Positions 8,110 through 59,465 of a stretch of 64,000 nt of DNA are shown here, piece after piece. The notes beneath the pieces are model-generated. The model did no database searches and was not told where the DNA came from. It was given only the letters and a program-made list of their open reading frames with translations. Within the stretch, counting starts at the first letter, position 1. Each line of letters begins with the position of its first letter. The position numbers and the translations under genes are program-made. Source of the stretch: Mycobacterium paragordonae (GTDB taxonomy: Bacteria > Actinomycetota > Actinomycetes > Mycobacteriales > Mycobacteriaceae); contig NZ_CP025546.1 in NCBI RefSeq assembly GCF_003614435.1, positions 5,766,001-5,830,000 of the forward strand, given 5' to 3'.

Positions 8110-8125
8110 TTCCGCAAAAGCGGAA
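8110..8125. promoter_or_regulatory. TTCCGC-AAAA-GCGGAA dyad upstream of the DUF35/thiolase operon
   Basis: A perfect 6-4-6 inverted repeat 57 bp upstream of the DUF35 start. A second inverted pair, GAACG (8094-8098) and CGTTC (8108-8112), lies beside it. Candidate operator or 5' hairpin; the regulator is unknown. Confidence 0.4.
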
Positions 8126-8136
8126 ATTGCATTCTC
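8122..8136 (-). promoter_or_regulatory. GAGAAT-type operator candidate (site 1)
   Basis: On the minus strand it reads GAGAATGCAATTTCC. It matches the GAGAATNNNATTNTC pattern found at six other promoters in this window and lies 69 bp upstream of the DUF35/thiolase operon. Confidence 0.4.
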
Positions 8137-8200
8137 GCCCGAACCAACACGGGCGTCGCGTTCGGTGCCGTCGGAAATTGACAGCCACTACGATTTGGCC

Positions 8201-10084
8201 ATGTCTCTTGAGGTTGGGCAGGTATTCGCCGGATACACCATCCTGCGGGTGCTGGGCGCCGGCGGAATGGGCAGGGTGTATCTGGCCACACATCCGCGGC
8301 TGCCGCGCGAGGACGCGCTCAAGGTCCTGCCCGCGGAGTACACCGACGATCCCGAATACCGGAAGCGGTTCGCTCGCGAAGCCGACGTGGCTGCGGGCCT
8401 GTCGCATCCGCACATCGTCCGGATCTACGACCGCGGCGAGAATGACGGCCAGTTGTGGATCTCGATGGATTATGTCCCCGGCACCGACGCCTCTCACCTG
8501 CTCTACGAGCGCTATCAGAGCGGTTTGCCGATCGACGAAGTCGTCACCATCATCTCCGACGTCGCATCCGCGCTGGACTACGCCCACCACCGCGGACTGC
8601 TGCACCGCGACGTCAAGCCGGCCAACATCCTGCTCACCGAACCCGACAACGTCCAGGGCCGCCGGATCTACCTCGCCGACTTCGGCATCGCGCGGCTCAT
8701 CGATGACGCCTCCGGCCTGACGGCCACCAACGTGGCGGTCGGCACTGTCGCCTATGCCGCACCTGAGCAACTCAAGGGCGATCCGGTGGACGGACGCGCC
8801 GACCAATATGCATTGGCGTGCACAGCCTTTCATCTGTTGACCGGGTCTCCGCCGTTCGCCGACACCAACCCCACGGTGGTGATCACGCAGCACGTCAGTG
8901 CACCCCCGCCGTCCATCGGCGCACGTCGCCCCGAATTGTCCGGTCTCGATCCCGTGTTCGCCACGGCCATGGCCAAGAACCCGTCGAGCCGTTACAACAG
9001 CTGCAGCGACTTCGCCCTGGAACTGAGCAAGCACCTGTCGCCGTACAACTACGACACGCCAATCGGGTTGCACGCCCAGCACACTCAGCCCGCGATCATC
9101 CTGCCCACCGCACAGGCCGGCCCGCGAAGCTGGACACGGCGGCCCGCCGTACTGTTCAGCGCCCTGGTGGCCGTCGCGCTGCTCATCCTCGGCGCTGTCT
9201 TTGTCGGCACGAAGTTCACCCACTCGCGCAAGCACACCGCCGCACCTGTCGGGTCGTCCACCGCGGGGCCGCCCCCCGCCGCGCAAGGCCCATTCACCGG
9301 CACTTACCGCGCCGACTTCGGCCCGGTTACGTTGATCAACGGCAAGCAAGTTCCAAATGCGCAACCTAGCACGGGCACCTACGGTGTGCGCTCGATGTGC
9401 GGCGGCACCGGCTGCGTGGCAACGGGTTCGCGCCTCAAAGGCGAAAGAGTATTCGCCACGAGCATGGTGTTCGACCAGCTGGGCAGTAGCTGGGTGGCGG
9501 TGGCCCTGTCCACCCAACCATGTAATGACACGACCAGTGAGATCTGGGAGGTCTTCACCCTGGAGGCACGTCCAGACGGAACTCTGGTCGGCGAACAAAC
9601 GCGCACCGCTCGCAATAATTGCGAAGAACGGCGGACCGTGACCTTCACCCGCACCGGCGATGCCCCGGCCGGCCTTCCCGACCCGGCGACCCTGCCGCCG
9701 CGGGTGCCGTCAGTGGCCGAGGCGTTTCACGGCCGCTACGCGCGGACCCTCGCGGTGGCGGGCCGAGGCACCCAGCCGGAGGGCGATTGCCCGGGCGTCA
9801 CCAATTGCTTGCGTACCGGTGATCGGTGCATGAGCTTCTTTCACTTTGATTCAGGCGATGCTCCCCTGATATTCGCCGGCAGCAGCTGGACGTGGGATGA
9901 AGTGAGCAGCGGCAAGTGTCCGGACGGGAGCCCGACGACGGTGCGGATCAGCGCCACTTACCCGCTGCCACAACCGACAGCGGATCCGCTGCCATCGCTG
10001 ACCGGCCACGGGCATTGGGCTCAAACGGGAACATGCTCGGTCAACGTGGATCTTGACGACACCTTCACTCGGACAGGCGATTAA
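8201..10084 (+). CDS. Receptor Ser/Thr protein kinase with doubled four-Cys extracellular domain (copy 1)
   Basis: A 627-residue membrane kinase. The cytoplasmic kinase domain (about 1-280) has the Gly loop GAGGMG, Lys41, HRD with Asp137, and DFG with Asp160; all key catalytic residues are present. A transmembrane helix spans about 315-336. The outside part (about 360-627) holds two related lobes, each with four cysteines and each ending TFTRTGD. Start ATG 8201 gives the usual MSLxxGxxFAGY beginning of PknF-like kinases; GTG 8165 would add 12 residues. A second kinase gene of the same length follows after 4 bases. Confidence 0.92.
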
Positions 10085-10088
10085 CACC

Positions 10089-32232: not shown

Positions 32233-32247
32233 GAGAATACTATTCTC
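32233..32247 (-). promoter_or_regulatory. GAGAAT-type operator (site 3), perfect palindrome
   Basis: Minus strand GAGAATAGTATTCTC with perfect 6-3-6 arms, 23 bp upstream of the amidohydrolase ATG. Its centre TAGTAT fits a mycobacterial -10 (TANNNT), so a bound repressor would cover the promoter. Confidence 0.65.
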
Positions 32248-32902: not shown

Positions 32903-32955
32903 CGGGAACGAGAATGCCAATATCGCCGTTCTCGCGCCCTGAGGAGTGATCACCC

Positions 32956-40117: not shown

Positions 40118-40290
40118 CAACTAAATTTGCCACAGTCGGAAAGAAAATTCATTATGTTGGCGACAGATGGTAAGAAAATTCTCTCATTCGGAGAGGGTGC
40201 TGAGAGTCGGGCATCGAGCCGATCGACACGGGCGCCAACGCGCGTCGGTGATAATGTGACTCTCTTAGTCGCGGGGTGAGGAGGTGATTC

Positions 40291-41058
40291 GTGCCGCCAC
40301 GCGAAACCTCAACTGAAGCGTCCGCGTCGGAGACCGGCGTGGATGATCTCGAGTCGGACCACCTCGCCGAGGCGGAAGCCCGGGCCGAGGCCGCCCGTGC
40401 CCGTGCGCGCGAACTGCGCCGGCAAGCGGAGGCGGCTTCGTCCGATGGGACGGGCGGCGCCGACTCGGCCGACGAAGCCGAAACGGCCGATGAAGCGGAA
40501 ACGGCCGACGAAGCCGAAACGGCCGACGAGGCGGAATCGCCGCCGGCGCGCCGCCTCCGGTTCCGACCGCATCGCCCGGGCCGAAAGGCCATTGTCGTCA
40601 CCGCCGCGCTGATGGTGTCCGGTGCCGCGTTGACCGGCAGCGGCTATTTGGTGTGGCACCACCACCAAGTCGTGCAGCAAACCCAGCGTTCCACCGAATT
40701 CGCGACCGCCGCCCGCCAGGCCGTCCTGCTGATGATGTCGATCGACCCGAATAAGGCGAGAGAGGACATGCAGCGTTTCGCCGACGAAACCACCGGCCAA
40801 TTCAAAGCAGGGGTATTGATGGGCGCCGAGGATATGGTCAAGGCGCTGGAACAATCCAAAGTCATCGCCAAAGCCTCGGTGCAAGCCGCCGGTGTGCAAT
40901 CGATGACCGAGGATTCGGCGGTGGTCCTGGTAGCGGCAAAGTCAGAGATCACCAAGGCGGACCAGGCAAAGCCGGAGGTGCGGACGTGGCGACTGGTCGT
41001 TGACGTCGAACGAGAGGGCGGCCAGCTCAAGATCTCCAAGATCGAGTTCGTGCCGTGA
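40291..41058 (+). CDS. Orphan Mam protein, long partner (second pair)
   Basis: A 255-residue protein with the same plan as the gene at 28344: an Ala/Glu/Arg coiled-coil stretch (LAEAEARAEAARARARELRR), an acidic tract with ETADEA repeats, one transmembrane helix (AIVVTAALMVSGAALTGSGY) and a Mam domain ending GGQLKISKIEFVP. GTG 40291 follows a strong GAGGAGGTG site. The GTGA overlap at its end couples it to the next gene. It lies just 5' of a secreted-protein gene and faces the mce operon. Confidence 0.85.
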   Translation: MPPRETSTEASASETGVDDLESDHLAEAEARAEAARARARELRRQAEAASSDGTGGADSADEAETADEAETADEAETADEAESPPARRLRFRPHRPGRKAIVVTAALMVSGAALTGSGYLVWHHHQVVQQTQRSTEFATAARQAVLLMMSIDPNKAREDMQRFADETTGQFKAGVLMGAEDMVKALEQSKVIAKASVQAAGVQSMTEDSAVVLVAAKSEITKADQAKPEVRTWRLVVDVEREGGQLKISKIEFVP

Positions 41059-45101: not shown

Positions 45102-46507
45102 GATTGCGGCCTCTCGGCGGGCAGCAACAGTTCCGGCACGCTCTGCGGGGCGGGCCCCGGCTCGGGCGGCACACTCGGCGGCGGGGGCTCTGGCATGGCG
45201 GCCCCCGGTATCCGTGCGGGCGGCCCCGGCGGTGGCGGTGCCTCCGGAACGTCGCCCGGCAAGCCCGTGTAGGCCGACACCGCGGGCGGCAACTCGGGCG
45301 CCGTCGGCTTGGGGCCCTCCCCGCCCGGCGCCAGCCGTTGCTCGGTGTAGACGACGTTCTTCGGGTCGAACGCCGGGGCGAGGATCGGGTTCACCGGAAT
45401 GGGAAAGTAGTTGAAGTTGAAATAGGTCAGCGGGTTGAAGACCTTCAGCGCCGGGCTGAGATACAACCCGCACAACTTGCCTGTCTCGACCGAGGTGACG
45501 TTCTCCAACGCACTGATCTGCGAACAGAAGGCGTTGGTCGGATTGCTGAGGTTCTGCACACCAACGCCACCTCGAACGTTGCCGACGTCGGGGTCATAGT
45601 CGTTGTAGGCGTTGGCAAGTGCGTTCGGCGCGACGTGCAGCACGTTCTGCAGCGCCATCTTGTTGTCGACCAGGATCTGCGTCAGGTCGGCGAGTCGGGT
45701 GATCTGTTCGGCGGTCTGGTCCCGGCTGCCTGCGATGAACCGCTGCACCTCTCCCACCGCACTCGACAGGTCCGTCAGCGCCGCATCCAGATTCGCCTTG
45801 TTGTCGTCGAGCACGCTGGTCAGCGTGGCCAGCCGGTCGTTGAATTGCACGAGCTGGACGTTGCTGTCCCGCAGCGCGCCCACGAAAGTCTGCAAGTTCT
45901 TGATGATGTCGACGAGGTTGCCGCTGCCGTTGGCGAAAATCCGTCCCACCGCCGACAATTGGGCCAGCGTCTGGCGCAGCTTGTCGCCGTTGCCGCCCAG
46001 CGCATTGGCGGCAGCGTCGATGAACCGCGCCACCGACGGTGTCGACACCCTGCTGTTGGGCCCGAAATCGGTTGCCAATCGCATCAATTGGTCTTTGATT
46101 TCGTCCCACTCGACGGGCGTTGCCGTCCGGTTGACCGGGATCACCGCGCCGTCGGCCATCGTGGCGCCGGCGGAGCGGTAGGCGGGCGTGAGTTGGACAT
46201 ACCGCGCCGCCACCAGATTCTGCGCGACGATAACGGCTTTCGCGTCCGCCGGGATCGAGATGCCGTGATCGACGTGCATCACCATCTTGGCTTGGGTGCC
46301 GGCCGGCTTGATCGATTCGATGGTGCCGACTTTCAGGCCCGATACCCGCACATCGTCACCGGGATAGATCGCGGTGGCGGTGTGGAAGTAGGCGATGATC
46401 GTGGTGGGCCGGAAGAACGTATTGCGGATGGCCACTCCCGCCCCGACCACAAGCAGCAATGCCAGCAAGGCGGCGAGTGCGAGCTTGACACCCGTGCGCC
46501 GCATCAT
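45098..46507 (-). CDS. Mce family protein MceD
   Basis: A 469-residue MCE protein: transmembrane helix (LALAALLALLLVVGAGVAI), MCE core (IAYFHTATAIYPGDDVRVSGLKVGTIESIKP), a helical tunnel region and a C-terminal Pro-rich tail. ATG 46507 overlaps the mceC TGA; another ATG follows directly. Part of the same transporter. Confidence 0.92.
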   Translation of the reverse strand: MMRRTGVKLALAALLALLLVVGAGVAIRNTFFRPTTIIAYFHTATAIYPGDDVRVSGLKVGTIESIKPAGTQAKMVMHVDHGISIPADAKAVIVAQNLVAARYVQLTPAYRSAGATMADGAVIPVNRTATPVEWDEIKDQLMRLATDFGPNSRVSTPSVARFIDAAANALGGNGDKLRQTLAQLSAVGRIFANGSGNLVDIIKNLQTFVGALRDSNVQLVQFNDRLATLTSVLDDNKANLDAALTDLSSAVGEVQRFIAGSRDQTAEQITRLADLTQILVDNKMALQNVLHVAPNALANAYNDYDPDVGNVRGGVGVQNLSNPTNAFCSQISALENVTSVETGKLCGLYLSPALKVFNPLTYFNFNYFPIPVNPILAPAFDPKNVVYTEQRLAPGGEGPKPTAPELPPAVSAYTGLPGDVPEAPPPPGPPARIPGAAMPEPPPPSVPPEPGPAPQSVPELLLPAERPQS

Positions 46508-47586
46508 CGCGACCCTCCCGGGTTCTGGTTGAACGGGAAGGGCAGCAGTGCCCGCGGACCGGCGTTGTCCGGTGGTTGGCCCGGAGCGCCGTAAGCACGG
46601 AAACCGAAGGCGTAGTCGAACAACCACTGGAAGAACTGCAGCGTGAAGATGTTCGGGATGAACGGGTTGTAGTAGAAGCCACTCGACACCGTCTCACCCT
46701 GAGTCAGTTCGAATTTGGCCAGTCCCGGGATCGCTTTGGCGAGGTTGTCGCGGTTGTCTTCCAGCATCGCGGTCACCGAGTTCAGCTTGGTCAGCGTCGG
46801 CGCCAGCTTTGCCTCGTTGTCGTGCACCAGACCGGTGAGTTGTTTGGCCACCGCAGAGGTACTGGCGAGCAGTCGCACGATCGCCTGACGCCGCTCCACC
46901 AGCATGGACAGCAGATCGTCGGCATTGAGAATCAGCGTGTTCAACTGGTTACTGCGCTCGGACAGGATGTGCGTGACGTCGGCCGCGCCCTTGAGCAACT
47001 GACCCAGGGTCTGGTTGCGGTTGTTCAGCGTGGATGACAGCCTGGTCACCCCGTCGAACGTTGGACCAAGTTGGGGCGCAATCTGATTCAGCGTGTTCGA
47101 CAACGTGTCCAGAGACTGGTTGAGGGTGTCGGTGTTGGTCCCGGCGATGTCTGTGGCCAGGTCCCCGACCGCTTCGGACAGGGAGTAGGGAGAGGAGGTG
47201 CGCGAGAGCGGGATGACGGCCATCGGGCGCATGTCCCCGCTGCCGGTGGACTCGACGGTCAGCACGCGCTGGCCGAGTAGCGAACCGGTACGAATGTGCG
47301 CGGTGCTGGCCGATCCGAGTTGAACCGCTCCTTTGACGGTGAATGTCACCAGCACATCGCCGTTCTGCAGCGACATTCCCGACACGCTGCCGACCTTGAT
47401 ACCCGACACCGTCACGTCGTTGCCGGTCACCAGGCCGCCGGCGTCGGCGAACACCGCTTGGTAGCGGACCGTAGTGGCCCGCTGCAACAACTGGTCTGGC
47501 GACAGCCCGACCGCAATGACCAGCACTATCAACACAACGCCGATGAATCCGGCTCGAATGAGGCGCGCTCCGCGGTACTTAAGCAT
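46504..47586 (-). CDS. Mce family protein MceC
   Basis: A 360-residue MCE protein with a transmembrane helix (IRAGFIGVVLIVLVIAVGL) and MCE core (AVFADAGGLVTGNDVTVSGIKVGSVSGM). ATG 47586 overlaps the end of mceB by 8 bases; a GTG at 47598 would add four residues. Coupled to mceD by ATGA. Confidence 0.91.
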   Translation of the reverse strand: MLKYRGARLIRAGFIGVVLIVLVIAVGLSPDQLLQRATTVRYQAVFADAGGLVTGNDVTVSGIKVGSVSGMSLQNGDVLVTFTVKGAVQLGSASTAHIRTGSLLGQRVLTVESTGSGDMRPMAVIPLSRTSSPYSLSEAVGDLATDIAGTNTDTLNQSLDTLSNTLNQIAPQLGPTFDGVTRLSSTLNNRNQTLGQLLKGAADVTHILSERSNQLNTLILNADDLLSMLVERRQAIVRLLASTSAVAKQLTGLVHDNEAKLAPTLTKLNSVTAMLEDNRDNLAKAIPGLAKFELTQGETVSSGFYYNPFIPNIFTLQFFQWLFDYAFGFRAYGAPGQPPDNAGPRALLPFPFNQNPGGSR

Positions 47587-48610
47587 CGGGTTCCGCACAC
47601 CTTCCGGTGACCTGGTGGGTGACGCCCACCTCTACCGTTCGGTACTGCAGATCGGAGACCCGCAGCGCAAGCCCGCACAGGTAGTACGGGAACCACGCGC
47701 CGTATGCGCCCAACCTGGTCAGCTTGCGGTAGTTGTTCGGCAACTTCTTCAGCGAGATGTCGATGAGGTTCTTGTCTTTGTCCAGCAATGGAGCGAGCCG
47801 GTTGAGTTGATCGATGGTGCCGGACAGCGGCGGGCGGGCGCGGGTCAGCAGATCCGCGATCGAGGCGGTTCCGTTGTCCAGAGCGGTGATTGCGGTGCCG
47901 ATGGTGTCGCGATCGGAGGACAGTCCGCTGATGAGGCGCTCCAGTCGGTCGATCGCACCGGAGAACTTGGTGCCCTCCGCATTGACGGTGCCTACCACGG
48001 TGTTGAGGTTGTCGATCAGGGCCTGCACCGTTTCGCTGTTGTCGGCCAACGTGTTCGAGAAGGACGACGTCTTGGACAGCAGCGACTGCAGGGTGCCGCC
48101 CTCACCCTGGAACACCTCGATCAGCGACGCGCTCAGCGCATTGACGTCTTCGGCCTTGAGGCCCTTGGTCACCGGCTTCAGCCCGCCCAACAGCAGATCC
48201 AGGTCCAGAGCCGGTGCGGTGCGGTCGATCGGTATCTCCGAACCGCCCGCCAGTGGCTTGGTGTTGCCCGGGCCGTCCAGTAATTCGAGGTAACGGTCAC
48301 CGACCAGGTTCAGGTAACGAATGACCGCGCGGGTGCCGCCGGTGAGTACCACGTCGCGGTTGGCGTCGAATTTCACCAGAACCTTTTTGTCCGCCCGCAA
48401 TTCGACACTGTTCACGGTGCCCACCCGAACACCGGCGACCCGCACGGTCTGCCCCTCCTTGAGGCGCGAGACGTCGGTGAAGAGCGCGGAATACTCTGTG
48501 GTGGAACCGGTCTGGTACTGGCCGAAGATGAAAAACAGGGAAATTGTCAGCAGGACCATGACCAGCGCGAAGGCGCCGAACTTGATGATCATCCCGCGTG
48601 AGTTGCTCAT
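47579..48610 (-). CDS. Mce family protein MceB
   Basis: A 343-residue MCE protein: transmembrane helix (IIKFGAFALVMVLLTISLFFIF), MCE core (YSALFTDVSRLKEGQTVRVAGVRVGTVNSVEL) and a long helical C-terminal region. ATG 48610 overlaps the mceA stop by four bases. Confidence 0.93.
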   Translation of the reverse strand: MSNSRGMIIKFGAFALVMVLLTISLFFIFGQYQTGSTTEYSALFTDVSRLKEGQTVRVAGVRVGTVNSVELRADKKVLVKFDANRDVVLTGGTRAVIRYLNLVGDRYLELLDGPGNTKPLAGGSEIPIDRTAPALDLDLLLGGLKPVTKGLKAEDVNALSASLIEVFQGEGGTLQSLLSKTSSFSNTLADNSETVQALIDNLNTVVGTVNAEGTKFSGAIDRLERLISGLSSDRDTIGTAITALDNGTASIADLLTRARPPLSGTIDQLNRLAPLLDKDKNLIDISLKKLPNNYRKLTRLGAYGAWFPYYLCGLALRVSDLQYRTVEVGVTHQVTGRCAEPDA

Positions 48611-49866
48611 CCGGGTTGTCCAAACTGCATCGTGTTGCGTGGCGGCCCGTCGATCGGCCCGTACAGCAGTTGCTTGAGTGCGTCGGAGTTCAACAGCAAC
48701 TGCGGGTTTCCATACTCCATCGGGTTGGCCCCCACATCGGCCACCACGAAGGGCGGCGCGACGTCATACGGCACGACGGGCAGTGTCTGACACTGGGGCC
48801 CGCCGGTCGCGGCCACCTTGGGCAGGTTGCTCGGATACCGGTAGCGTTCGGCGCCGAATCCGATGTAGACCAACACCTTGATCATCGGCTCGGGCAGGTT
48901 CGGCGCGTGGAGATTCACCAATGAGCCGGCCAGACCGCAATACAGCGCCTGGTGATACTCGTTGGTGAGGTTGGTCGTCGGCAACAGCAGGTGCAACACA
49001 TCGGTCAGCGCCTGCCGGTTGCCTCCGATCACCTCGTTGCCGATGTCGGCCAAACCGATTGAGCTGATCAGGAACGCGTCCAGGTTCTGTTGCTCTTCGA
49101 CGATCGACTTGCTGATCCTGATCGCGTTCTCGGCCGAACCGATCAGATCCGGCGCAGCGTCGGCGTAGGCGTTGCTTACGACGGGCAGGACCGAAAGGTC
49201 ATGGTTCAGCGCGGGGAGTGCCGGATCCTGCTTGGCCAGAAAGGCATCGAGGTCCGACAGCGCCTGCCCGATCTTGTGGCCGCGGCCGTTCATCGCCGCC
49301 GCGATCGCGCCCAGCGTTTCGTTGAGTTTGGCGGGATCGATGTTCGACAACAGGTTGGTGAGCTGTTGGAAGACCGTGTTGACTTCAACGGTGACACCCT
49401 TGCCCTCGAGTACCTGATGCGGTTGCAGGCTCTGCTGCGAGGGCTGGTCGGGCGGTATCAACTCGATGAACTTGGCGCCGAACACCGTCGTGGAGGCGAT
49501 GTCGACGAGAACATTGCGCGGAATGAGATGCATCGCCGACGGCTGCATCGCCAGGTGCAGAACCGCCTGACCGTTGGGGCGTTCCTCGATGGACTCGACC
49601 TTGCCCACCATGACCCCGCGCATCTTCACTTTGGCTTCGGGGTTCATCACCAGGCCGGCCCGCGGCGACACCACGGTCACCGGCACGCTCTCGGTGAATT
49701 CGCTGTTGAACAAGCCGATTGCGACGGCGACGATCGCCAGGATGACGACGACCGTGGCCAGGCCCATCAGCGGGCGCACATAGCTGCGCGGCTTGGGCCG
49801 ACCGGAGTGGTGCGACCGCCCCTTCGTACTCGGGCCGTGGCGGCCCGCCGGCACATTAGCTGTCAC
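48607..49866 (-). CDS. Mce family protein MceA
   Basis: A 419-residue MCE protein: basic N-terminus, transmembrane helix (GLATVVVILAIVAVAIGLF), and the MCE core with SPRAGLVMNPEAKVKMRGVMVGKVESIEE. The later DVYADAAPDL-like segment reads NAYADAAPDL. GTG 49866 starts 19 bp after the yrbEB stop. The sequence does not clearly match one of Mce1-4 by eye, so I leave the family number open. Confidence 0.93.
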   Translation of the reverse strand: MTANVPAGRHGPSTKGRSHHSGRPKPRSYVRPLMGLATVVVILAIVAVAIGLFNSEFTESVPVTVVSPRAGLVMNPEAKVKMRGVMVGKVESIEERPNGQAVLHLAMQPSAMHLIPRNVLVDIASTTVFGAKFIELIPPDQPSQQSLQPHQVLEGKGVTVEVNTVFQQLTNLLSNIDPAKLNETLGAIAAAMNGRGHKIGQALSDLDAFLAKQDPALPALNHDLSVLPVVSNAYADAAPDLIGSAENAIRISKSIVEEQQNLDAFLISSIGLADIGNEVIGGNRQALTDVLHLLLPTTNLTNEYHQALYCGLAGSLVNLHAPNLPEPMIKVLVYIGFGAERYRYPSNLPKVAATGGPQCQTLPVVPYDVAPPFVVADVGANPMEYGNPQLLLNSDALKQLLYGPIDGPPRNTMQFGQPG

Positions 49867-49885
49867 TGAACTCTCCGCACCTCCC

Positions 49886-50731
49886 CTAGCCCGACAGGTT
49901 GAAGTTGCCGTTGGAACCGTAGATGGACAGTGAGATCAGCAGGGTCACCGAGACCACCACGATCAGCGAGGTGCGCACGGCGTTGCCGGTGGCCACGCCG
50001 ACACCGGCCGGGCCGCCCGAGGCGAAAAAGCCGTAGTACGTGTGGATCAGCAAAATGGTGATCGCCATCAGGACGGCCTGCAGAAAGGACCACAACAGGT
50101 CGATCGGATTGAGGAAAGTCGTGAAGTAGTGCTGATACAGCCCGCCAGACTGCCCGAACAGGATGACCGTGGTGAACTGACTGGCCAGGAACGACAGGCT
50201 GACGGCAATGCTGTACAGCGGGGTGATGGCCAGCATCCCGGCGACGATGCGGGTACTGACCAGATACGAAACCGGCCGGATCGCCATGGATTCCAGCGCG
50301 TCGATCTCTTCGTTGATCCGCATGGCACCAAGTTGGGCCGTCACGCCGGCGCCGAAGGTGGCCGCCAAGCCGATGCCGGCCACGATCGGAGCCGCGATGC
50401 GGACATTGATGAACGCCGCCAGGAAGCCGGTCAGCGCCTCGATCCCGATGTTGCCCAGCGAGCTGTACCCCTGGACCGCTAGCGTGCCGCCCGCCGCCAG
50501 GGTGAGGAAGCCGACGATCACCAGCGTGCCGCCGATCATCGCCAAAGTCCCCGCGCCCATGCTGATTTCAGCGATCAGGCGGATGATCTCGCGTCCGTAG
50601 CGGGTCACCGCGAAAGGAATACCGGCAAGCGCCTTACCGTAAAACAGCGTGTGATCGCCGATTCGGCCCAGACTGCCGACCGGTCTCTGGAGTTGCCGCG
50701 TGACACGCGGATATACGGCTCTCAGCGCCAC
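49886..50731 (-). CDS. MlaE/YrbE-type permease YrbEB
   Basis: A 281-residue permease of the Mce ABC-type importer. It contains the MlaE family core (GLAATFGAGVTAQLGAMRINEEIDALESMAI) with the EEIDAL motif that contacts the ATPase. It starts with GTG 50731, 43 bp after yrbEA. The MceG-type ATPase is not in the window; mycobacteria usually encode a single shared one elsewhere. Confidence 0.94.
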   Translation of the reverse strand: MALRAVYPRVTRQLQRPVGSLGRIGDHTLFYGKALAGIPFAVTRYGREIIRLIAEISMGAGTLAMIGGTLVIVGFLTLAAGGTLAVQGYSSLGNIGIEALTGFLAAFINVRIAAPIVAGIGLAATFGAGVTAQLGAMRINEEIDALESMAIRPVSYLVSTRIVAGMLAITPLYSIAVSLSFLASQFTTVILFGQSGGLYQHYFTTFLNPIDLLWSFLQAVLMAITILLIHTYYGFFASGGPAGVGVATGNAVRTSLIVVVSVTLLISLSIYGSNGNFNLSG

Positions 50732-50732
50732 G

Positions 50733-50744
50733 GTAAGTGCTTAC
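50733..50744. promoter_or_regulatory. GTAAG-TG-CTTAC dyad before the yrbEB start
   Basis: A small inverted repeat between the GGGAGG ribosome-site-like sequence and the GTG start of yrbEB. As RNA it could form a weak hairpin that brings the two together or limits yrbEB translation. Confidence 0.25.
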
Positions 50745-50774
50745 ACCTCCCTTCCCATGCTCATGCCCCGGTAC

Positions 50775-51581
50775 CTACTTCGCCGACATTCGGATGCCGA
50801 TAGCGGTGACAACCACATTGACCACGAACAGCGACATGAACGCGTACACCACCGTCTCGTTGACGGCATTGCCTACGGCCTTGGCGCCGCCGCCGGTTAT
50901 CGTCAGGCCGCGGTAGCACGCCACCAGCCCGGCGATCAGACCGAAAAGCGCTGCCTTGACACAGGAAATGATCACCTCGGGCACCCCGGTCAGCAGCGTG
51001 ATTCCCGCGGCGAACGCCCCCGGGTTCACGTCCTGCACGAACACCGAAAAGATGTAGCCGCCAAGAATTCCGATGATGACCACCAGGCTGTTCAGCAGCA
51101 GCGCCACCAGGCCGGAAGCCAGCATGCGGGGCGTCACCAGCCGCTGAATCGGGTTGATCCCCAACACCTCCATCGCGTCGATCTCTTCGCGTATCGTTCG
51201 CGAACCCAGATCGGCGCACATCGCCGTGGCCCCGGCACCGGCCACGATCAACACCGTCACCAGAGGCCCAACCTGCGTCACAGCACCGAAAGCGGCACCC
51301 GCGCCCGAGAGGTCGGCAGCACCGAGTTCGCGCAGCAGGATGTTGAGGGTAAAGCTGACCAGGACGGTGAACGGGATGGCCACCAACAACGTTGGTGCCA
51401 GCGCGACCCGGGCAACGAACCAGGACTGCTCCAGAAACTCACGCCACTGAACGGGCCGCCGGAACGCGAACTTGATGGCATCGGCCGACATCGCGAACAG
51501 CGCGCCGACGGCTTCCATGGGTTTGGAACCACGACCCAGCACGATCCCCGGAGTCCAGCGTTCCGCTCCCTTACTCGCCAT
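50775..51581 (-). CDS. MlaE/YrbE-type permease YrbEA
   Basis: A 268-residue permease, first gene of the mce operon. Family core: GAGATAMCADLGSRTIREEIDAMEVLGINPIQRLVTPR, with other helices matching mycobacterial YrbE4A closely (PVQWREFLEQSWFVARVALAPT). ATG 51581 has AGAGGA upstream. The mce promoter should lie in the 278 bp gap to the CoA transferase. Confidence 0.94.
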   Translation of the reverse strand: MASKGAERWTPGIVLGRGSKPMEAVGALFAMSADAIKFAFRRPVQWREFLEQSWFVARVALAPTLLVAIPFTVLVSFTLNILLRELGAADLSGAGAAFGAVTQVGPLVTVLIVAGAGATAMCADLGSRTIREEIDAMEVLGINPIQRLVTPRMLASGLVALLLNSLVVIIGILGGYIFSVFVQDVNPGAFAAGITLLTGVPEVIISCVKAALFGLIAGLVACYRGLTITGGGAKAVGNAVNETVVYAFMSLFVVNVVVTAIGIRMSAK

Positions 51582-51859: not shown

Positions 51860-53065
51860 CTAGGTGACCGCGCCGGCGGTCTTGAGTTCGATGATGCGGT
51901 CCCAATCGAGGCCCAGTTCCTGCAGGATCTCGTCGGTCTGTTCGGCAAAGCCGGGCGCGGGACCGGTCTGCGGCGCGGTGACGTCGAACTGAACCGGGTT
52001 GGCGACCAGTTCGAGTTCGCCTGCGCGCACCATGTATTCGTTCGCCCGGATCTGCGCATCGTCGGCCGCTTGCAGAGTGTCCTGCACCGGCGCCCAAGGT
52101 CCCGCGAGCGTCGCAAAGCGTTCGCTCCACTCGGAAAGAGTGCGGGTTGCGAAGACTTTGGTCAAGATCTCCACCGCATCTGCCGTATTGGCGGCAATGG
52201 TCTCGCCGTTGGCGAAACGGGGATCGTCGATCAGTTCCGGGCGGTCGATGTGCCGGCACACGTCGGCCCAGAACTTGCCGGGCTGCATCATCACCAGAGA
52301 GATGTAGCGTCCGTCGGCTGTGGGGTACACCCCGACCAGGGGATTGACCGGCGAACCGTGGATACCCGGCGGCGGAGCCTGCATCAGCTGACCGAGGTGC
52401 CTGGTCAGCGCCACGGTATGGCCCAGCGCCCAGAGCCCGCTGCCGAGCAACGACACGTCCACCACCGACGGCTCGCCGGTGCGTTCACGTTTGAGCAGGG
52501 CCGCGGCGATGCCGCCGGCCAGGTTGGTGCCGGAGATGGTGTCGCCGTACGCCGGCCCGGGCGGATTGATCATGCCCTCGTAGCCCATCGGGGTGATGGT
52601 GGCCGCGGTTCCGGCTCGACACCAGAAGGCGGTCATGTCGTAGCCACCCTTGGTGGCTTCATTGCCGCGTGGCCCGAGCGCGCTCCCGCGAGCGTAGACG
52701 ATCTTCGGATTGACCGCCCGGATGTCGTCGACGTCGATACCGAACTTCTGCCGATGGTCGGGCAGGAAGCTGGTGAGGAAAACGTCGGCACGGCGGGCGA
52801 GTTCGTAGAGCACCTCCTTGCCCTCCGGTACCGACATGTCCAGGCCGATGCTGCGCTTGCCGCGGTTGGCGTGCTCGATGTTGGGGTTGGGGTCGCCCTC
52901 GACGCGCAGCATGCCGGTCTGGCGGAGGCCGCGCTGCGGGTCGCCGGTCACCGCGTGCTCGACCTTGATGACATCGGCTCCCCATTCGCGCAACACCGCA
53001 CCCGCTGAGGGGACGAATCCGTACATCGCGACTTCCAGGACACGGATGCCCTCGAGTGGTTTCAC
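51860..53065 (-). CDS. CaiB/BaiF class III CoA-transferase
   Basis: A 401-residue family III CoA-transferase (EGIRVLEVAMYGFVPSAGAVLREWGADVIKVEH). The catalytic Asp is in GGYDMTAFWCRAG, and GGIAAALLKRERTG and GVYPTADGRYISLVMMQ are typical. It would move CoA onto an acid substrate, possibly the product of the upstream aldehyde dehydrogenase, to which it is coupled by an ATGA overlap. Confidence 0.9.
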   Translation of the reverse strand: MKPLEGIRVLEVAMYGFVPSAGAVLREWGADVIKVEHAVTGDPQRGLRQTGMLRVEGDPNPNIEHANRGKRSIGLDMSVPEGKEVLYELARRADVFLTSFLPDHRQKFGIDVDDIRAVNPKIVYARGSALGPRGNEATKGGYDMTAFWCRAGTAATITPMGYEGMINPPGPAYGDTISGTNLAGGIAAALLKRERTGEPSVVDVSLLGSGLWALGHTVALTRHLGQLMQAPPPGIHGSPVNPLVGVYPTADGRYISLVMMQPGKFWADVCRHIDRPELIDDPRFANGETIAANTADAVEILTKVFATRTLSEWSERFATLAGPWAPVQDTLQAADDAQIRANEYMVRAGELELVANPVQFDVTAPQTGPAPGFAEQTDEILQELGLDWDRIIELKTAGAVT

Positions 53066-54600
53066 GCGTTTGCTCCTCGGGCCGCAGGGACGGCAAACGT
53101 CTTGCCCTCCAAGAACTCTTCCAGGCCGGCCACGCCCATCTCCCGGCCGACACCGGACTGTTTGAAGCCACCGAACGGGCTGTCCGCGCCGAAATAGTTG
53201 CCGCCGTTGACCGAAAACGATCCGGCCCGAATCCGGCGCGCCACCGACAGGGCGCGGTCCTGGTCGCGACTGAACACCGCGCCGGCCAAACCGTAGATCG
53301 AGTTGTTGGCGATGCGCACCGCGTCGTCGTCGTCGTCGAACGGGATCACCACCAGCACCGGCCCGAACACCTCGTCCTGGGCGATCTCGCTGTCCGGGTC
53401 GACGTTGGTGAGCAGGGTCGGCGCGTAAAAGTAGCCGGGATCCAGCCGCTTGCCGCCGGTGACCAGCGTGGCGCCCGCGGCGACGGCCCGCTGGACCATG
53501 CCGTCGACCTTGTCCCGCTGGCGCTCGTTGATCAGCGGTCCCATATAGGTTTTCGGATCGCCCGGGTCGCCATGGCGAACCTTGGCGAAGTTCTGCGCGA
53601 TCAACTCGACGACCTCGTCGTGGTGCTTCCGCGGCACCAGCAGGCGCGAGGTGAGCGCGCAGCCCTGCCCGGCGTGGGTGACCATGCTGAACGCGGCGAA
53701 CATGGCAGCGCCGGCGAAGTCGGCGTCGTCGAGCATGATCACCGCGGACTTCCCACCGAGCTCCAGGAAGACGCGTTTGACGGTGTCGCTGGCCGCAGCC
53801 ATGATCTTGCGCCCGACCGCCGTGGATCCGGTGAACGTCACCACGTCGACGTCGGGGCTGGTGGTCAACGCTTCCCCTACCGCCGGATCAGACGAGCTGA
53901 GCACGTTGACGACACCGGGCGGGATGTCGGTGTGGTTGGCGATCAGCTCACCCAGGGCCAGGGTGACCAGCGGCGTGTCGGGCGCCCCCTTGAGCACCAC
54001 CGTGCAGCCGGCGGCGAGCGCGGGCGGCAGCTTGGCCAGTGCCAGCTGGTTCGGGTAGTTGTAGGCGATGATCGCCGCGACCACTCCCGCGGCTTCTTTC
54101 TCCACCCAGCGGTGGTGGCGCATGCCGCGCGACTCTTTCTCACCGAGGTCTTCGGAGAACTCGTACGTGCGCAACAGGTCGGCGTAGAACCGGACGATGC
54201 CGATCGGCTCGTCGAGTTGCGCTCCGTGGGTCAGCGCGCGGGTGGCACCGACTTCGGCGATGGTCAGCTCGCGCAACTCCTCCGCATGGTCGAGCAGCGC
54301 CTGGTGCAGCTGGTCGAGACAGCGGATCCGGAACTCGACGTCGGTGGACCAGTCGGTGGTGTCGAAGGCACGCCGCGCCGCGGCAATGGCCTGCCGAGCC
54401 TCCTGGACACCCGCGTCGGGCGCATACCCGAGCACTTCCCCGGTAGCGGGATTGACGGTCGCGAACGTCTTCGGCGTTGCCACGAGTCGACCGTCGATGA
54501 GCAATCTGCGGCTCGGCCCGGCGCCGGACTCAGCGCCGTCCCGGGTCGGTTGATCGCCCACTTGAGCGTCCTGGGTCGCCGCCGTGTCCTGGACTGACAT
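53062..54600 (-). CDS. Aldehyde dehydrogenase family protein
   Basis: A 512-residue NAD(P)-dependent aldehyde dehydrogenase. The catalytic Glu is in LELGGKSAVIML, the nucleophile Cys is in HAGQGCALTSRL, and NYPNQLALAKLPPALAAGC forms the cofactor segment. ATG 54600 has GAGAGGG upstream; the frame to 54687 would cover the operator. It likely oxidises an aldehyde formed by the P450/SDR steps, giving the acid for the CoA transferase. Confidence 0.92.
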   Translation of the reverse strand: MSVQDTAATQDAQVGDQPTRDGAESGAGPSRRLLIDGRLVATPKTFATVNPATGEVLGYAPDAGVQEARQAIAAARRAFDTTDWSTDVEFRIRCLDQLHQALLDHAEELRELTIAEVGATRALTHGAQLDEPIGIVRFYADLLRTYEFSEDLGEKESRGMRHHRWVEKEAAGVVAAIIAYNYPNQLALAKLPPALAAGCTVVLKGAPDTPLVTLALGELIANHTDIPPGVVNVLSSSDPAVGEALTTSPDVDVVTFTGSTAVGRKIMAAASDTVKRVFLELGGKSAVIMLDDADFAGAAMFAAFSMVTHAGQGCALTSRLLVPRKHHDEVVELIAQNFAKVRHGDPGDPKTYMGPLINERQRDKVDGMVQRAVAAGATLVTGGKRLDPGYFYAPTLLTNVDPDSEIAQDEVFGPVLVVIPFDDDDDAVRIANNSIYGLAGAVFSRDQDRALSVARRIRAGSFSVNGGNYFGADSPFGGFKQSGVGREMGVAGLEEFLEGKTFAVPAARGANA

Positions 54601-54633: not shown

Positions 54634-54648
54634 GATAATTTCATTCTC
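54634..54648 (-). promoter_or_regulatory. GAGAAT-type operator (site 5), aldehyde dehydrogenase promoter
   Basis: Minus strand GAGAATGAAATTATC, 11 of 12 arm positions symmetric, 34 bp upstream of the aldehyde dehydrogenase ATG. Confidence 0.55.
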
Positions 54649-54809
54649 ATCTCCGGCGAATCTTACATTCGGGATGTGAGAAGACAAGCGAGTTCCTATC
54701 CCCGATTACCCAGGTCACGGGCTGAGCGACCGCTCAGCGACCTCCCGTTCTGACAGCTTGGCGCAGGCCCGGGGGGGTTTCCCGCCTCTCTTGCGGGCCG
54801 CTTCTGGCT

Positions 54810-54824
54810 GAGAGTACGATTCTC
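54810..54824 (+). promoter_or_regulatory. GAGAAT-type operator (site 6), SDR/P450 promoter
   Basis: Plus strand GAGAGTACGATTCTC, one mismatch from a perfect 6-3-6 dyad. CATAAT at 54824-54829, a likely -10, starts at the last base of the site. It lies in the divergent gap between the aldehyde dehydrogenase and SDR operons. Confidence 0.6.
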
Positions 54825-54846: not shown

Positions 54847-54891
54847 GTGGATGAGATTGACGACCTGACCGCTCGGAGTCGGCGACCGTGA
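54847..54891 (+). CDS. Possible 14-codon leader peptide ahead of the SDR
   Basis: GTG 54847 follows AAGGGAGA (54833-54840) at a 6-base spacing. The frame reads MDEIDDLTARSRRP and stops at TGA 54889-54891, overlapping the SDR GTG as GTGA. It could be a translational-coupling leader, or the displaced true N-terminus of the SDR, since many SDRs begin with a similar D-L-T-x-R segment. Confidence 0.4.
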   Translation: MDEIDDLTARSRRP

Positions 54892-55589
54892 GAACTGCGG
54901 TAGTCACCGGCGGCGGATCCGGCATCGGTCTGGCGGTGGCGCAACGCCTGCGGGCGGACGGCCGCAACGTCGCGACCATAGACCTCAAGCCATCCGACGA
55001 CGACCTCTGCTACACCGCGGATGTCACCGACCGCTCGCAGATCGACGCGGCGCTGTCGGCGATCCGGGAGCGGCTGGGACCGGTCACGATTCTTGTCAAC
55101 GCGGCGGGCCTGGACGGCTTCAAGCGCTTCACCAACATCTCTTTCGAGGATTGGCAGCGGGTGATCGACGTCAACCTGCACGGGGTGTTCCACATGATCC
55201 AGGCGGTGTTGCCCGACATGTTGGAGGCGGGTTGGGGACGCATCGTCAACATCTCGTCCTCCAGCACGCACTCCGGGGTCCCGTTGATGTCGCACTATGT
55301 CGCCGCCAAATCGGCGGTCAACGGGCTGACCAAGTCCCTGGCGCTCGAGTACGGACCAAGTGGCATCACGGTCAACGCCGTGCCCCCCGGCTTCATCGAC
55401 ACCCCGATGTTGCGCAATGCCGAGAACCAGGGATTCCTGGGCGACGTCGAACAGAACATCGCCCGCACACCGGTGCGCCGCATCGGCAAGCCCGAGGACA
55501 TCGCCGCGGCATGTGCCTTCCTGTCTTCCGATGAAGCCAGTTACATCACCGGTCAGATATTGGGTGTCAACGGCGGTCGAAACACCTAA
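54888..55589 (+). CDS. Short-chain dehydrogenase/reductase
   Basis: A 233-residue classical SDR: NAD(P)-binding TGGGSGIG at residues 7-14, NAG-like NAAG, catalytic Ser in NISSSS, YxxxK as YVAAK, and PPGFIDTPM. It would oxidise a hydroxyl group or reduce a ketone of the pathway substrate. GTG 54888 overlaps a mini-ORF stop. It is followed within 14 bp by ferredoxin and P450 genes, so it belongs to one operon with them. Confidence 0.9.
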   Translation: MRTAVVTGGGSGIGLAVAQRLRADGRNVATIDLKPSDDDLCYTADVTDRSQIDAALSAIRERLGPVTILVNAAGLDGFKRFTNISFEDWQRVIDVNLHGVFHMIQAVLPDMLEAGWGRIVNISSSSTHSGVPLMSHYVAAKSAVNGLTKSLALEYGPSGITVNAVPPGFIDTPMLRNAENQGFLGDVEQNIARTPVRRIGKPEDIAAACAFLSSDEASYITGQILGVNGGRNT

Positions 55590-57180: not shown

Positions 57181-57194
57181 CCGCCGCCCCTACC

Positions 57195-57254: not shown

Positions 57255-57262
57255 CGGGAGTC

Positions 57263-58438
57263 TCAGGCCCGCGGCAGGCCGAGGATGCGCTGGGCGATGA
57301 TGTTGCGCTGGATTTCCGACGTGCCCCCGGCGATGGTGCCGGAGAAGCTTCGCGCGTAGCGCTCGAACCAGCTTGCGAAATAGTGGTCGAGGTTCATCGG
57401 CGCGTACGGCCCGGTGAGCCCAGGGTGCACCAGCCCGTCATCACCGGCGGCCTCCAGCGCGTATTCGCTGATCCGCAATTCCGCCTCGGAGCCAAGCAGT
57501 TTCAGCACCGAGGTCGCGGAGGTGTCGTCCTCGCCGCGGGATGCCCGGGCCAGTGCCACCGAACCCAGCAGGCGCAGGGCCTGCTTGTCCATGATGGTCG
57601 TCGCGTACCGATCGCGATCGAGTTCACCGGCGGGCCGGAAGTCGGCGAGCATGTTGTCCATCCGGTCGGCGAACCCGAGCCACATCATGGTGCGCTCGTG
57701 GCCGAGCGAGCCGTTGGCCACCCGCCAGCCCTGGTTGAGTTCGCCCACCAGATTCTCCGCCGGCACCCGCGCGTCGGTGAAGAACACCTCGTTGAAGTCC
57801 AGGTCGTCGTCAGCGCAGATGGACGGGAACGGCCGGCGCGCCACGCCTTCGGTGTCGGTGGGGATCAGCAACACGCTGATGCCTTTGTGTTTCGGCGCGT
57901 CGGGGTCGGTCCGCACGAACGTCAGCAGCACGTCGGCATCATGGGCGCCGGACGTCCACACCTTCTGTCCGTTGACGACGAAATGATCACCGTCCCGCAC
58001 CGCCCGGGTCCGCAACGACGCCAGGTCCGACCCGGCGCTCGGTTCACTCATCCCCAGTGACGCGGTGATCTCGGCACGCAGAATCGGCACCGCCCAACGA
58101 TGCTTCTGCTCCTCGCTGCCGAATGAGATCAGCGATGCCGCAACGATGTTCACGCCTTGCGGATTGAAGCTGTGGTAGATCCGGCGGCGGCACAGCTCCT
58201 CGAGGTAGACGTACTGCTGCAACACCGTCGCATTGCGCCCACCGAACTCGGGAGGCTGGGTGGGCAGCAGCCAGCCGTTGTCGAACAACAGCCGCTGCCA
58301 GCGCCGCGCCCAGCCCGGCATATGCGAAACCGAGCGGGGCCGCTCGACGGTTTCGCTTGCGGCAGGCAGGTTTTCGTCCAGGAACGCCGCGAATTCGGCG
58401 CGGAATTCCTCGACGTCGCTGTCAAAAGTCAGTTGCAC
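57263..58438 (-). CDS. Acyl-CoA dehydrogenase, larger subunit of a FadE pair
   Basis: A 391-residue FadE: GMSEPSAGSDLASLRTRA (FAD/substrate loop), DGDHFVVNGQKVWTSGAHDAD, and the C-terminal FAD-binding SGTIAGGTSEIQRNIIAQRILG. Paired FadE genes in mycobacterial steroid catabolism form alpha2beta2 enzymes, and the arrangement here suggests the same. It starts with GTG 58438, overlapping the partner's end by 17 bases. Confidence 0.9.
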   Translation of the reverse strand: MQLTFDSDVEEFRAEFAAFLDENLPAASETVERPRSVSHMPGWARRWQRLLFDNGWLLPTQPPEFGGRNATVLQQYVYLEELCRRRIYHSFNPQGVNIVAASLISFGSEEQKHRWAVPILRAEITASLGMSEPSAGSDLASLRTRAVRDGDHFVVNGQKVWTSGAHDADVLLTFVRTDPDAPKHKGISVLLIPTDTEGVARRPFPSICADDDLDFNEVFFTDARVPAENLVGELNQGWRVANGSLGHERTMMWLGFADRMDNMLADFRPAGELDRDRYATTIMDKQALRLLGSVALARASRGEDDTSATSVLKLLGSEAELRISEYALEAAGDDGLVHPGLTGPYAPMNLDHYFASWFERYARSFSGTIAGGTSEIQRNIIAQRILGLPRA

Positions 58439-59420
58439 GGTACTCCTCGGCGATCCGCGCCCGGTGCTCAGCCGCGCCCCCGAGCATCAGCTCGCCCGCC
58501 TTCGCGCGCTTGAGCGCGAACTGCAGGTCGTTCTCCCAGGTGAATCCCATTGCCCCGTGCAGCTGTAGCCCATGGCGGAACACCAGCGACTGGCACTCCC
58601 CTGCCGATGCCTTTGCCATCGCCGCGGCCAGCCGGCGACGGGGATCGTCGGCGGAGATGGTCAGTGCGGCGAAGTAGGCCAATGCCCTGGCTCGTTGCAC
58701 CGCGACATGCATGTCGGCCGCTTTGTGCTGGACGGCCTGGAAAGAGCCGATGGGGACGCCGAATTGGTGCCGGCTGCGGACGTGCTCGAGCACCAGGTCA
58801 AGGATGCGCTGGCAGGCGCCGACCATGGTGATGGCCATGCCGGTCAGGGCGATGTGGTGCGCGCGTTCCGGGTCTACGTTCACGCGGTCGCTGTCGGGCA
58901 CCCGGACATCGTGGAACGACAGATCGGCCACGTGCAGCACCGGGTCGAACACCGATTCGCGCCGGGCGGACAACTGCCCGGCGTCGGTGAGGAATACTCC
59001 GGCTTCGGTGACCACCGCGACGCGCTCGGCCCGGTCGCCATCGAGAACATGGCGGGCGGTGCCGTCCAGCACCCAGCCGCCGGCGTTGCGGCGCGCGGAC
59101 ACCCCGCCGTAGACGGCGGTGCCGGACTGGTTGGGGTCGAAGCTCTCGCCGGCCAGCGGAGCGTACTGGCTCATGGTCGACAGAAACGGGGTGGGATCGG
59201 TGGCGTGGCCGAGTTCTTCGAGGACGATCGCCAATTCGACCGCGCTGGCGGTTTCGTTGAGTTCTGTCCAGCCGAGCTGGCGATACAGCTTCCACAGCGG
59301 TTCGACGTCGGCGTCGTCCTCGGCCACGCTGCGGACCAGGCTGGGCGGACATTGCTTGGTGACGACGTCGCGCACCGTGTCCTGCCACAGCCGCTGATCA
59401 GCATCAAACTCCAACAGCAT
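58422..59420 (-). CDS. Acyl-CoA dehydrogenase, smaller subunit of a FadE pair
   Basis: A 332-residue acyl-CoA dehydrogenase-like protein, shorter and more divergent than its partner. It keeps the C-terminal helix bundle (SRHQFGVPIGSFQAVQHKAADMHV, LHGAMGFTWENDLQ) but lacks the canonical EPxAGSD loop. This fits a heteromeric FadE pair with one weak subunit. ATG 59420 is 31 bp from the GAGAAT operator. Confidence 0.88.
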   Translation of the reverse strand: MLLEFDADQRLWQDTVRDVVTKQCPPSLVRSVAEDDADVEPLWKLYRQLGWTELNETASAVELAIVLEELGHATDPTPFLSTMSQYAPLAGESFDPNQSGTAVYGGVSARRNAGGWVLDGTARHVLDGDRAERVAVVTEAGVFLTDAGQLSARRESVFDPVLHVADLSFHDVRVPDSDRVNVDPERAHHIALTGMAITMVGACQRILDLVLEHVRSRHQFGVPIGSFQAVQHKAADMHVAVQRARALAYFAALTISADDPRRRLAAAMAKASAGECQSLVFRHGLQLHGAMGFTWENDLQFALKRAKAGELMLGGAAEHRARIAEEYRATDF

Positions 59421-59450
59421 CCGGGCCGCCTCCCGTCACGATTACCTAGC

Positions 59451-59465
59451 GAGAATAACATTCTC
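59451..59465. promoter_or_regulatory. GAGAAT-type operator (site 7), perfect palindrome
   Basis: GAGAATAACATTCTC on the plus strand with perfect 6-3-6 arms. It lies in the 111 bp gap between the divergent FadE and SnoaL-like operons, and its TAACAT centre could be the plus-strand -10. Confidence 0.65.

Follow-up and report, generated by a model that had tools for sequence, protein, structure and literature searches.

What reads a short palindrome that recurs ahead of catabolic-looking genes in Mycobacterium paragordonae? The question arises from a 64,000-nucleotide stretch of its 7.22 Mb genome (G000:C1:5766001-5830000; hereafter the window, within which sites are named by their first position), where a sequence-only reading had proposed seven GAGAATNNNATTNTC-like sites as a regulon. 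All seven were found where that reading had placed them. Exact matches to GAGAATNNNATTCTC, which has two six-base arms around a three-base centre (6-3-6), occur in the window only at 32233 and 59451. It is highly probable, in our judgement, that these sites are operators of one catabolic regulon and that g139, a gene for a TetR protein of 217 amino acids about 30 kb past the window's right end (G000:C1:5859862-5860515), encodes its repressor, which would act as paired dimers and be released by a pathway intermediate.

Genome-wide distribution of the motif

At up to three mismatches the window holds 77 matches against a shuffle mean of 55.4 (standard deviation 8.6), and 2 of 100 shuffles reach 77. 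Because this enrichment is only mild, the loose motif by itself proves little, and we dropped it as evidence, the window count being near chance. Exact GAGAATNNNATTCTC occurs at seven places in the genome as against none for the reversed pattern, and with up to two mismatches there are 85 places against 10. One mismatch leaves 13 places, 11 of them within 206 kb (5.798-6.004 Mb) in and to the right of the window (binomial 7.5e-16, for a region chosen afterwards). The proposed regulon thus survives a genome scan for random placement, since 11 of the 13 near-exact places cluster beside catabolic-looking units.

The sites had also been described as all intergenic. This is so in our own uncurated gene calling. 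Between 5.70 and 6.02 Mb there are 20 places that differ from the motif by two bases or fewer, and 18 of them are intergenic, though the same caller assigns 88.8% of that stretch to coding sequence. Each site nevertheless also falls within some mechanical open reading frame, so that intergenic status hinges on the gene calls.

Place 636434 lies inside a coding frame, looks like chance and was rejected as an operator. Place 6529365 is directly upstream of another catabolic-looking unit, its genes read by eye: at G000:C1:6529271-6533123 (L024:9771-13623) an exact site is followed by a short-chain dehydrogenase (SDR), an acyl-CoA dehydrogenase-like protein and a TetR gene of the unit's own. The site persists with similar flanks in the close relative G006 (L185), where that TetR gene was not found at 1e-30.

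Conservation of the sites in relatives

Eighty named loci were fetched with the g139 protein; they are the best 80 of 387 relatives, hence close relatives. Promoters were read by synteny in G006, G029, G020 and G034, which are known to carry the regulon, and G026 yielded none of these genes. Both samples are freer of exact-site selection than the promoter sets gathered for holding exact sites, which feed the eleven-relative counts, the hexamer counts and the reading of the g073 partner below. Arm conservation in those sets is partly built in, because the promoters were fetched for exact sites.

Within the 80 loci a spacer of 3 gives 195 exact matches, spacers of 0-2 and 4-7 give none, and 30 scrambled half-sites give none each. 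In the stretch 90-220 bp upstream of g139, 79 loci have an exact copy as their best site, and column identity there averages 0.997 in the arms, 0.93 in the centre and 0.74 and 0.84 in the flanks; in 71 loci the gene is flanked on either side by a site with no more than one mismatch. A palindrome next to its own gene is a trait of the TetR family, and the one upstream of g139 probably serves as an operator. The sequence-only reading had set conserved arms against a merely conserved core as a test in orthologous promoters; the arms are kept, the centre varies, and the regulon survives.

The promoters of g073 and g102, read by synteny, keep an exact site in all four genomes (Table 1). Of the two sites that the sequence-only reading had suspected of being chance, the one at 8122 is probably real, with counterparts of 2, 3 and 2 mismatches before the same DUF35 gene in three of five genomes, which are all those where the gene was found; the suspicion stands for 29521, which is unsupported. 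The 32888/32910 pair recurs with the same spacing and 2-3 mismatches per site in G006, G029, G020 and G034. Counterparts in these four genomes, in that order, have 1, 1, 3 and 2 mismatches for 54634, and 1-2 mismatches for 54810. The site at 40250 is the same in G006 and has related sites in G034 (one mismatch) and G020 (a 22-bp pair), where orthology is uncertain because the matched genes are only 39-55% identical. Conservation supports six of the seven listed sites as putative operators, 29521 being left without such backing, and we add four sites or partners in the window.

Beyond these promoters, six named relatives searched whole contain three to seven exact sites each. Eleven relatives, of which G017 was covered in part, contain 79 sites with one mismatch or none; 63 of these adjoin a homologue at least 62% identical to a G000 gene, 10 adjoin only homologues of 28-39%, and 6 adjoin none of the gene set. 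The distance from site to gene is also kept, at about 23 bp before g073 in eight of nine cases (11 bp in G029) and 28-36 bp before g102 in 10. By comparison, the reversed pattern is matched exactly in only 3 of 198 genomes of the genus.

A TetR gene between two exact sites

A search for a conserved TetR gene near the sites, as the sequence-only reading had advised, gave g139 as the best candidate; it lies outside the window, between two exact sites. Its TetR_N domain (PF00440) scores 31.6 bits against a cut-off of 24, and its best named relatives are from M. gordonae (98% identity). Among 37 genomes of the genus, g139 (at 80% identity or more) and exact sites are both present in 29 and both missing in 8, with no genome holding one without the other. 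In the larger set of 198, 160 have both, 3 the gene only, 3 the sites only and 32 neither, an agreement in 192 (Fisher 4.9e-30, relatedness uncorrected); 15 genomes without g139 in this table were identified by elimination. As both are present in 160 of the 198 and both are missing in 32, the regulon appears to mark a metabolic division in the genus.

Two g139 matches each at 1e-60 were seen in G016, G022, G093, G097, G110, G125, G154, G174, G198 and G205; in two of these genomes, G016 and G022, the second copy has an exact site at a distance of 17-18 kb. A duplicated regulon is possible in such genomes.

Two other TetR genes were rejected as the regulator. The in-window gene g058 tracks the sites badly (13 genomes with both, 16 with sites only, 1 with the gene only and 7 with neither), being present in 13 of the 29 site genomes and 1 of the 8 without. 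The gene beside 6529365 does not track them (16/13/0/8 in the same order) and is absent from 13 of the 29.

Paralogues share a putative operator layout

We read 22 upstream regions of g139 paralogues: 17 of a group among the closest, which we call clade P, 4 of a second group and 1 other (L275). Clade P proteins are 32-36% identical to g139 over the protein. In 16 of the 17, GGTAAYNNNRTTCTC stands about 30-105 bp upstream of the matched start, as against 1 in 34000 shuffled upstream sequences, the pattern having been written after the sequences were viewed; the seventeenth region reads, by eye, GGTAACGTCATTACC. This putative operator has the same 6-3-6 layout, with one half-site (RTTCTC) nearly as in GAGAATNNNATTCTC, but its other half-site is GGTAAY. 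The second group (L272, L273, L274, L276) has GAGAATNNNCRTTT upstream in all four, again by eye, possibly another operator of this layout, and upstream of L275 there is nothing closer than five mismatches. Related TetR proteins would thus mostly pair with related half-sites in the same 6-3-6 layout. One genome, G009, has a clade P paralogue (36%) with neither g139 nor exact GAGAATNNNATTCTC.

The clade P paralogues (L227:8051-9082, that is G000:C1:4892050-4893081, and L228 and L257-L271) have an extra C-terminal part, the protein being 343 amino acids long in G000. By eye this part is thioesterase-like and the next gene in G000 amidohydrolase-like. Clade P perhaps controls a second small regulon.

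Tandem second copies

An imperfect yet conserved second copy accompanies many of the sites at a distance of 21-22 bp, which corresponds to two helical turns. Among the 13 near-exact sites of G000 (one mismatch or none), 6 show a partner of up to four mismatches at this distance, as against three partners in total at 59 other distances between 15 and 75 bp (Poisson 1.4e-9). The same comparison of 21-22 bp with all other distances gives 3 against 4 partners in G034 (9 sites), 2 against 2 in G020 (8), 0 against 3 in G022 (8), 1 against 1 in G029 (8), 4 against 6 in G013 (9) and 4 against 5 in G028 (8). The partner is common, not universal, and is absent in G022.

Of the 79 exact sites ahead of g139, 78 are accompanied at +22 by a partner of 3-4 mismatches. 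In this partner 14 columns out of 15 reach a conservation of at least 0.97 and the remaining one reaches 0.72, whereas the seven bases between the copies range from 0.53 to 0.93. In G000 this partner is GGAAGTTACAATCTC, which contains the hexamer TACAAT. Because the same spacing occurs elsewhere with other hexamers, we argue for a second dimer. The partner at g073 coincides with the ribosome-binding region and was rejected as likely chance.

Position of the sites in promoters

The sequence-only reading had expected a repressor at these sites to cover the -10 element, which our data bear out for g073 and g185, and thus for some promoters only. In gene orientation, TANNAT lies within the operator in 10/10 promoters of g073, 8/8 of g185, 10/11 of g139, 3/8 of g131 and 0/11 of g102; the g131 set excludes a G034 site between g130 and g132, where no g131 orthologue was found. 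TTG stands 16-19 bp upstream in 10 promoters of g073, 6 of g185, 1 of g139, none of g131 and 1 of g102. The sites at g073 and g185 cover a normal-looking -10, and repression therefore fits. By the -10/-35 consensus, a match to which is all that this reading comprises, no promoter was recognised for g139, g131 and g102. At g073, g102, g125, g131 and g185 the site ends about 20-75 bp ahead of the start codon.

Target units

Targets were read outward from sites with at most two mismatches, and families were assigned from Pfam or NCBIfam matches. In the window (Table 1) they comprise a DUF35-thiolase unit, an amidohydrolase with a FadD3-family ligase, an enoyl-CoA hydratase, a unit beside the mce region, an aldehyde dehydrogenase with a CoA-transferase, an SDR/putative ferredoxin/P450 unit and an acyl-CoA dehydrogenase pair. 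For the mce-type operon g088-g095 no place with up to two mismatches lies upstream within the window; read-through from 54634 is possible. Beyond the window the targets are two amidohydrolases followed by a Rieske protein; a fused DUF35-thiolase; a CYP150A6-like P450; an amidohydrolase divergent from a CMD/Rieske-oxygenase unit; g139 itself with an acyl-CoA dehydrogenase and a P450/SDR unit; a meta-cleavage operon with a LigB dioxygenase and a ketosteroid-dehydrogenase-like flavoprotein; a MeaB-like GTPase; and a ligase unit divergent from a [2Fe-2S] ferredoxin.

Table 1 Putative operators and target genes in the window (window numbering)
Feature	Position	Strand	Remarks
Operator before DUF35 gene 7625-8053 (-) and thiolase 6478-7623 (-), probable	8122..8136		GAGAATGCAATTTCC; counterparts in G006, G029, G020, centres changed
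Candidate site, unsupported	29521..29535		found only in close relative G006 among relatives examined
Exact putative operator, amidohydrolase/FadD3-like unit	32233..32247		exact before orthologue in 4/4 synteny-read genomes
Putative operator, first of 22-bp tandem pair, before enoyl-CoA hydratase gene	32888..32902		pair kept
Putative operator, second of 22-bp tandem pair	32910..32924		new in this analysis
Probable operator between g084 (-) and g085 (+), beside mce region	40250..40264		two mismatches; new in this analysis
Putative operator before aldehyde dehydrogenase/CoA-transferase unit	54634..54648		one mismatch; counterparts in four genomes
Degenerate partner of 54634, 22 bp off	54656..54670		same spacing in G029, G020; new in this analysis
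Putative operator before SDR/ferredoxin/P450 unit	54810..54824		one mismatch; counterparts in four genomes
Exact putative operator, acyl-CoA dehydrogenase pair	59451..59465		exact before orthologue in 4/4 synteny-read genomes
Degenerate partner of 59451, 21 bp off	59472..59486		similar partner in G006, G029; new in this analysis
g053, thiolase-like protein	6478..7623	-	Pfam Thiolase_C_1, Thiolase_N
g054, DUF35/ChsH2-type OB-fold and zinc-ribbon protein	7625..8053	-	Pfam
g072, acyl-CoA ligase	29575..31023	-	NCBIfam 'FadD3 family', above cut-off
g073, amidohydrolase	31020..32210	-	Amidohydro_2
g074, 19-kDa-lipoprotein-antigen-like protein	32415..32843	-	divergent from g075 at 32888/32910 pair
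g075, enoyl-CoA hydratase/isomerase	32956..33720	+	family match
g085, no Pfam match	40291..41058	+	mce-associated by position only
g088-g095, mce-type operon	42180..51581	-	Pfam MlaE for 50775-51581, the one gene scanned
g096, CoA-transferase family III	51860..53065	-	family match
g097, aldehyde dehydrogenase	53062..54600	-	best NCBIfam match aldehy_Rv0768, below cut-off
g098, short-chain dehydrogenase	54888..55589	+	family match
g100, cytochrome P450	55795..57180	+	family match; only weak matches in P450 comparison
g101, acyl-CoA dehydrogenase	57263..58438	-	family match
g102, acyl-CoA dehydrogenase	58422..59420	-	best NCBIfam match IpdE2, below cut-off

We infer from its members that the target set resembles a toolkit for steroid or terpenoid degradation, and the substrate would accordingly belong to the polycyclic isoprenoids of a steroid- or terpenoid-like kind. 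No family match names the substrate, and few of the 20 proteins scanned against NCBIfam exceed a cut-off. Among the P450s, g125 closely resembles CYP150A6 (6dcd); the namesake of the latter in M. marinum, CYP150A5, is described as converting beta-ionone to 4-hydroxy-beta-ionone in a whole-cell system (PMC6237146), a hint only as to the pathway of g125. P450 g140 matches CYP130 moderately, and g115 and g123 had no match at 1e-60.

At G000:C1:5905887-5920113 (window numbering 139887-154113) the MeaB-like GTPase gene has a one-mismatch site upstream, and near it are a methylmalonyl-CoA-mutase-type large subunit and, by eye, a likely B12-binding subunit; these genes perhaps serve a branched or quaternary carbon. 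Window positions 8165-11972 hold two long genes in a row, the first for a Ser/Thr protein kinase and the second beginning alike by eye. A stretch of about 9 kb (G000:C1:5940863-5950108; window numbering 174863-184108) has no gene in codon-based calling; it may consist of RNA genes or of coding sequence with an unusual composition.

Proposed mechanism and alternative explanations

We propose that a g139 dimer binds GAGAATNNNATTCTC, one half-site per subunit, and that at many promoters a second dimer would occupy the weaker conserved copy 21-22 bp off. The pair would block RNA polymerase from the promoter. A pathway intermediate, most likely an acyl-CoA thioester, would enter the C-terminal pocket and release the repressor, so that the P450, Rieske oxygenase, amidohydrolase, acyl-CoA ligase, dehydrogenase and hydratase, DUF35-thiolase, meta-cleavage and mce-region units would be switched on jointly.

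Several observations weigh against this proposal. G080, G113 and G202 have g139 and no exact site, and sites occur without g139 in G068 (1), G094 (1; genome 73% complete) and G172 (8; 93% complete). G026 combines g139 with one exact site elsewhere and has no place with up to two mismatches in 20 kb around the gene, and a single exact site occurs without g139 in G053, a genome from another genus. One of the 80 loci, L143 (M. tilburgii), has a decayed upstream site with three mismatches, and its 14-kb locus retains no place with at most one. A gene-oriented TANNAT is absent from all 11 promoters of g102. Autorepression would be less direct, since some 120-137 bp separate the start of g139 from its site, and the conservation of the g139 partner could partly be that of a -10, because TACAAT lies inside it. 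The g139 model has a mean predicted local distance difference test score (pLDDT) of 72.6, and the score drops below 50 at residues 57-70, which lie around the recognition helix. Finally, g150, the second TetR gene of the cluster, is distributed almost as well as g139 (28/1/0/8 in the 37 genomes of the genus), and co-occurrence therefore does not single out g139.

This last point leads to the most serious alternative, that the sites are operators whose reader is g150, the IclR-like g171 or a protein encoded elsewhere, g139 being merely a target. Beside g171 there is a two-mismatch site, exact in G020 and G013, and the TetR gene near 6529365 belongs to a unit with an exact site. However, g150 has no place with up to three mismatches within 600 bp and occurs outside the genus in G040, G047, G049 and G060, all without an exact site, and we set it aside on these two grounds; the TetR gene near 6529365 and g058 are missing from 13 and 16 of the 29 site genomes. 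We favour g139 because sites adjoin it, one lying upstream in 79 of the 80 loci and 71 loci having one on either side, and because its paralogues have a matching 6-3-6 operator upstream, and regard another reader as unlikely. A slightly smaller chance attaches to g139 acting from these sites as an activator, or as both activator and repressor. The low counts of gene-oriented TANNAT at g102 and g131, and a -10/-35 reading that is a consensus match, leave some room for it. Against it stand the short distance between site and start codon at five genes and, at g073 and g185 together, TANNAT inside the operator in 18/18 promoters with TTG 16-19 bp upstream in 16/18. Moreover, most studied TetR proteins of catabolic clusters are repressors.

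The centre of the motif is often TANNAT, and it could be read as a promoter element, such as an extended -10 or an alternative sigma site, instead of a repressor operator. This we consider very improbable: the 12 symmetric arm bases are invariant while the centre varies, the word also stands downstream of g139, and 160 of the 163 genomes with the word have g139. Least credible of all is that a pattern-seeking reader gathered chance matches. The window count at three mismatches (77 against 55 expected) would suit that view, as would 29521 and 636434, but the strict counts, positions, conservation, co-occurrence and the near absence of the reversed pattern refute it for the regulon as a whole; it stands for 29521.

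The proposal of a g139 repressor may be extended, tentatively and with the odds against it. An undescribed genus-wide regulon, separate from KstR and KstR2, might run, in environmental mycobacteria, a complete pathway for a polycyclic isoprenoid, whether a plant triterpenoid, a resin acid, a hopanoid or a compound resembling bile acids. The pathway would include ring aromatisation and meta-cleavage, and perhaps also a B12-dependent acyl-CoA mutase that deals with a quaternary carbon. The repressor might come from a TetR clade sharing a 6-3-6 operator code, and its paired dimers, on a strong site and a deliberately weakened, conserved second site two helical turns away, might set promoter-specific thresholds. 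A g139 switch would tie a large set of unassigned P450, acyl-CoA and mce-region genes in non-tuberculous mycobacteria to one regulator, and its inducer would show on which compounds other than cholesterol these environmental mycobacteria feed. Cooperative TetR binding could be studied cleanly on the weak but conserved partner site.

Comparison with known systems

No description of the GAGAATNNNATTCTC motif was found in open-access papers, in which published motif logos are figures, so that absence from print is not shown. One TetR motif of PMC4482099 could in principle be related to it. The closest printed regulon is the 'motif X' regulon of Rv0767c (G155_05115) in Mycobacterium sp. VKM Ac-1817D, which likewise has a TetR regulator and a palindromic motif (PMC6593523). 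Its units include P450, aldehyde dehydrogenase and SDR genes, and 12 of 14 motif-X operons rose more than 3-fold with phytosterol, according to the same paper (PMC6593523).

The Rv0767c-type TetR gene in G000 is named by its neighbours only, adjoining the sole aldehyde dehydrogenase above the Rv0768 cut-off and two P450-like genes (by eye). g139 was rejected as the Rv0767c orthologue: in a BLASTP comparison with this protein the best local match is 22.7 bits over 17 residues. The Rv0767c-type gene also differs in having a GGACAACTGTCC palindrome in its divergent promoter. This palindrome, within L239:10616-10835 (G000:C1:6034616-6034835), stands between that TetR gene and the adjoining Rv0768-type aldehyde dehydrogenase, and is a candidate Rv0767c operator. 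Chromatin immunoprecipitation sites of Rv0767c are described as GAC- and GTC-rich in PMC10312376.

FadR-type TetR repressors that bind long-chain acyl-CoA (3ang, 5gp9, 6el2) are near the top of both the sequence and the fold matches of g139. YvdT heads the fold list, ahead of the FadR structures, which match at 14-21% identity with a root-mean-square deviation of 7-9 to a model of the modest mean pLDDT given above; the fold matches are weak because model confidence is low around the recognition helix. The KstR2 structure 4w97 ranks 22 in this list.

In organisation the proposed regulon resembles those of KstR and KstR2, the TetR repressors of cholesterol catabolism in mycobacteria and rhodococci. 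There too a TetR protein is encoded in its own large catabolic cluster, with short palindromic operators at many promoters and a toolkit of P450, FadD/FadE, ChsH2-like and mce genes, although the KstR and KstR2 operator words look, by eye, different from GAGAATNNNATTCTC. Judged from sequence, g139 would be a regulator of a known kind, comparable to KstR; the regulon itself appears real, and its repressor candidate is well supported.

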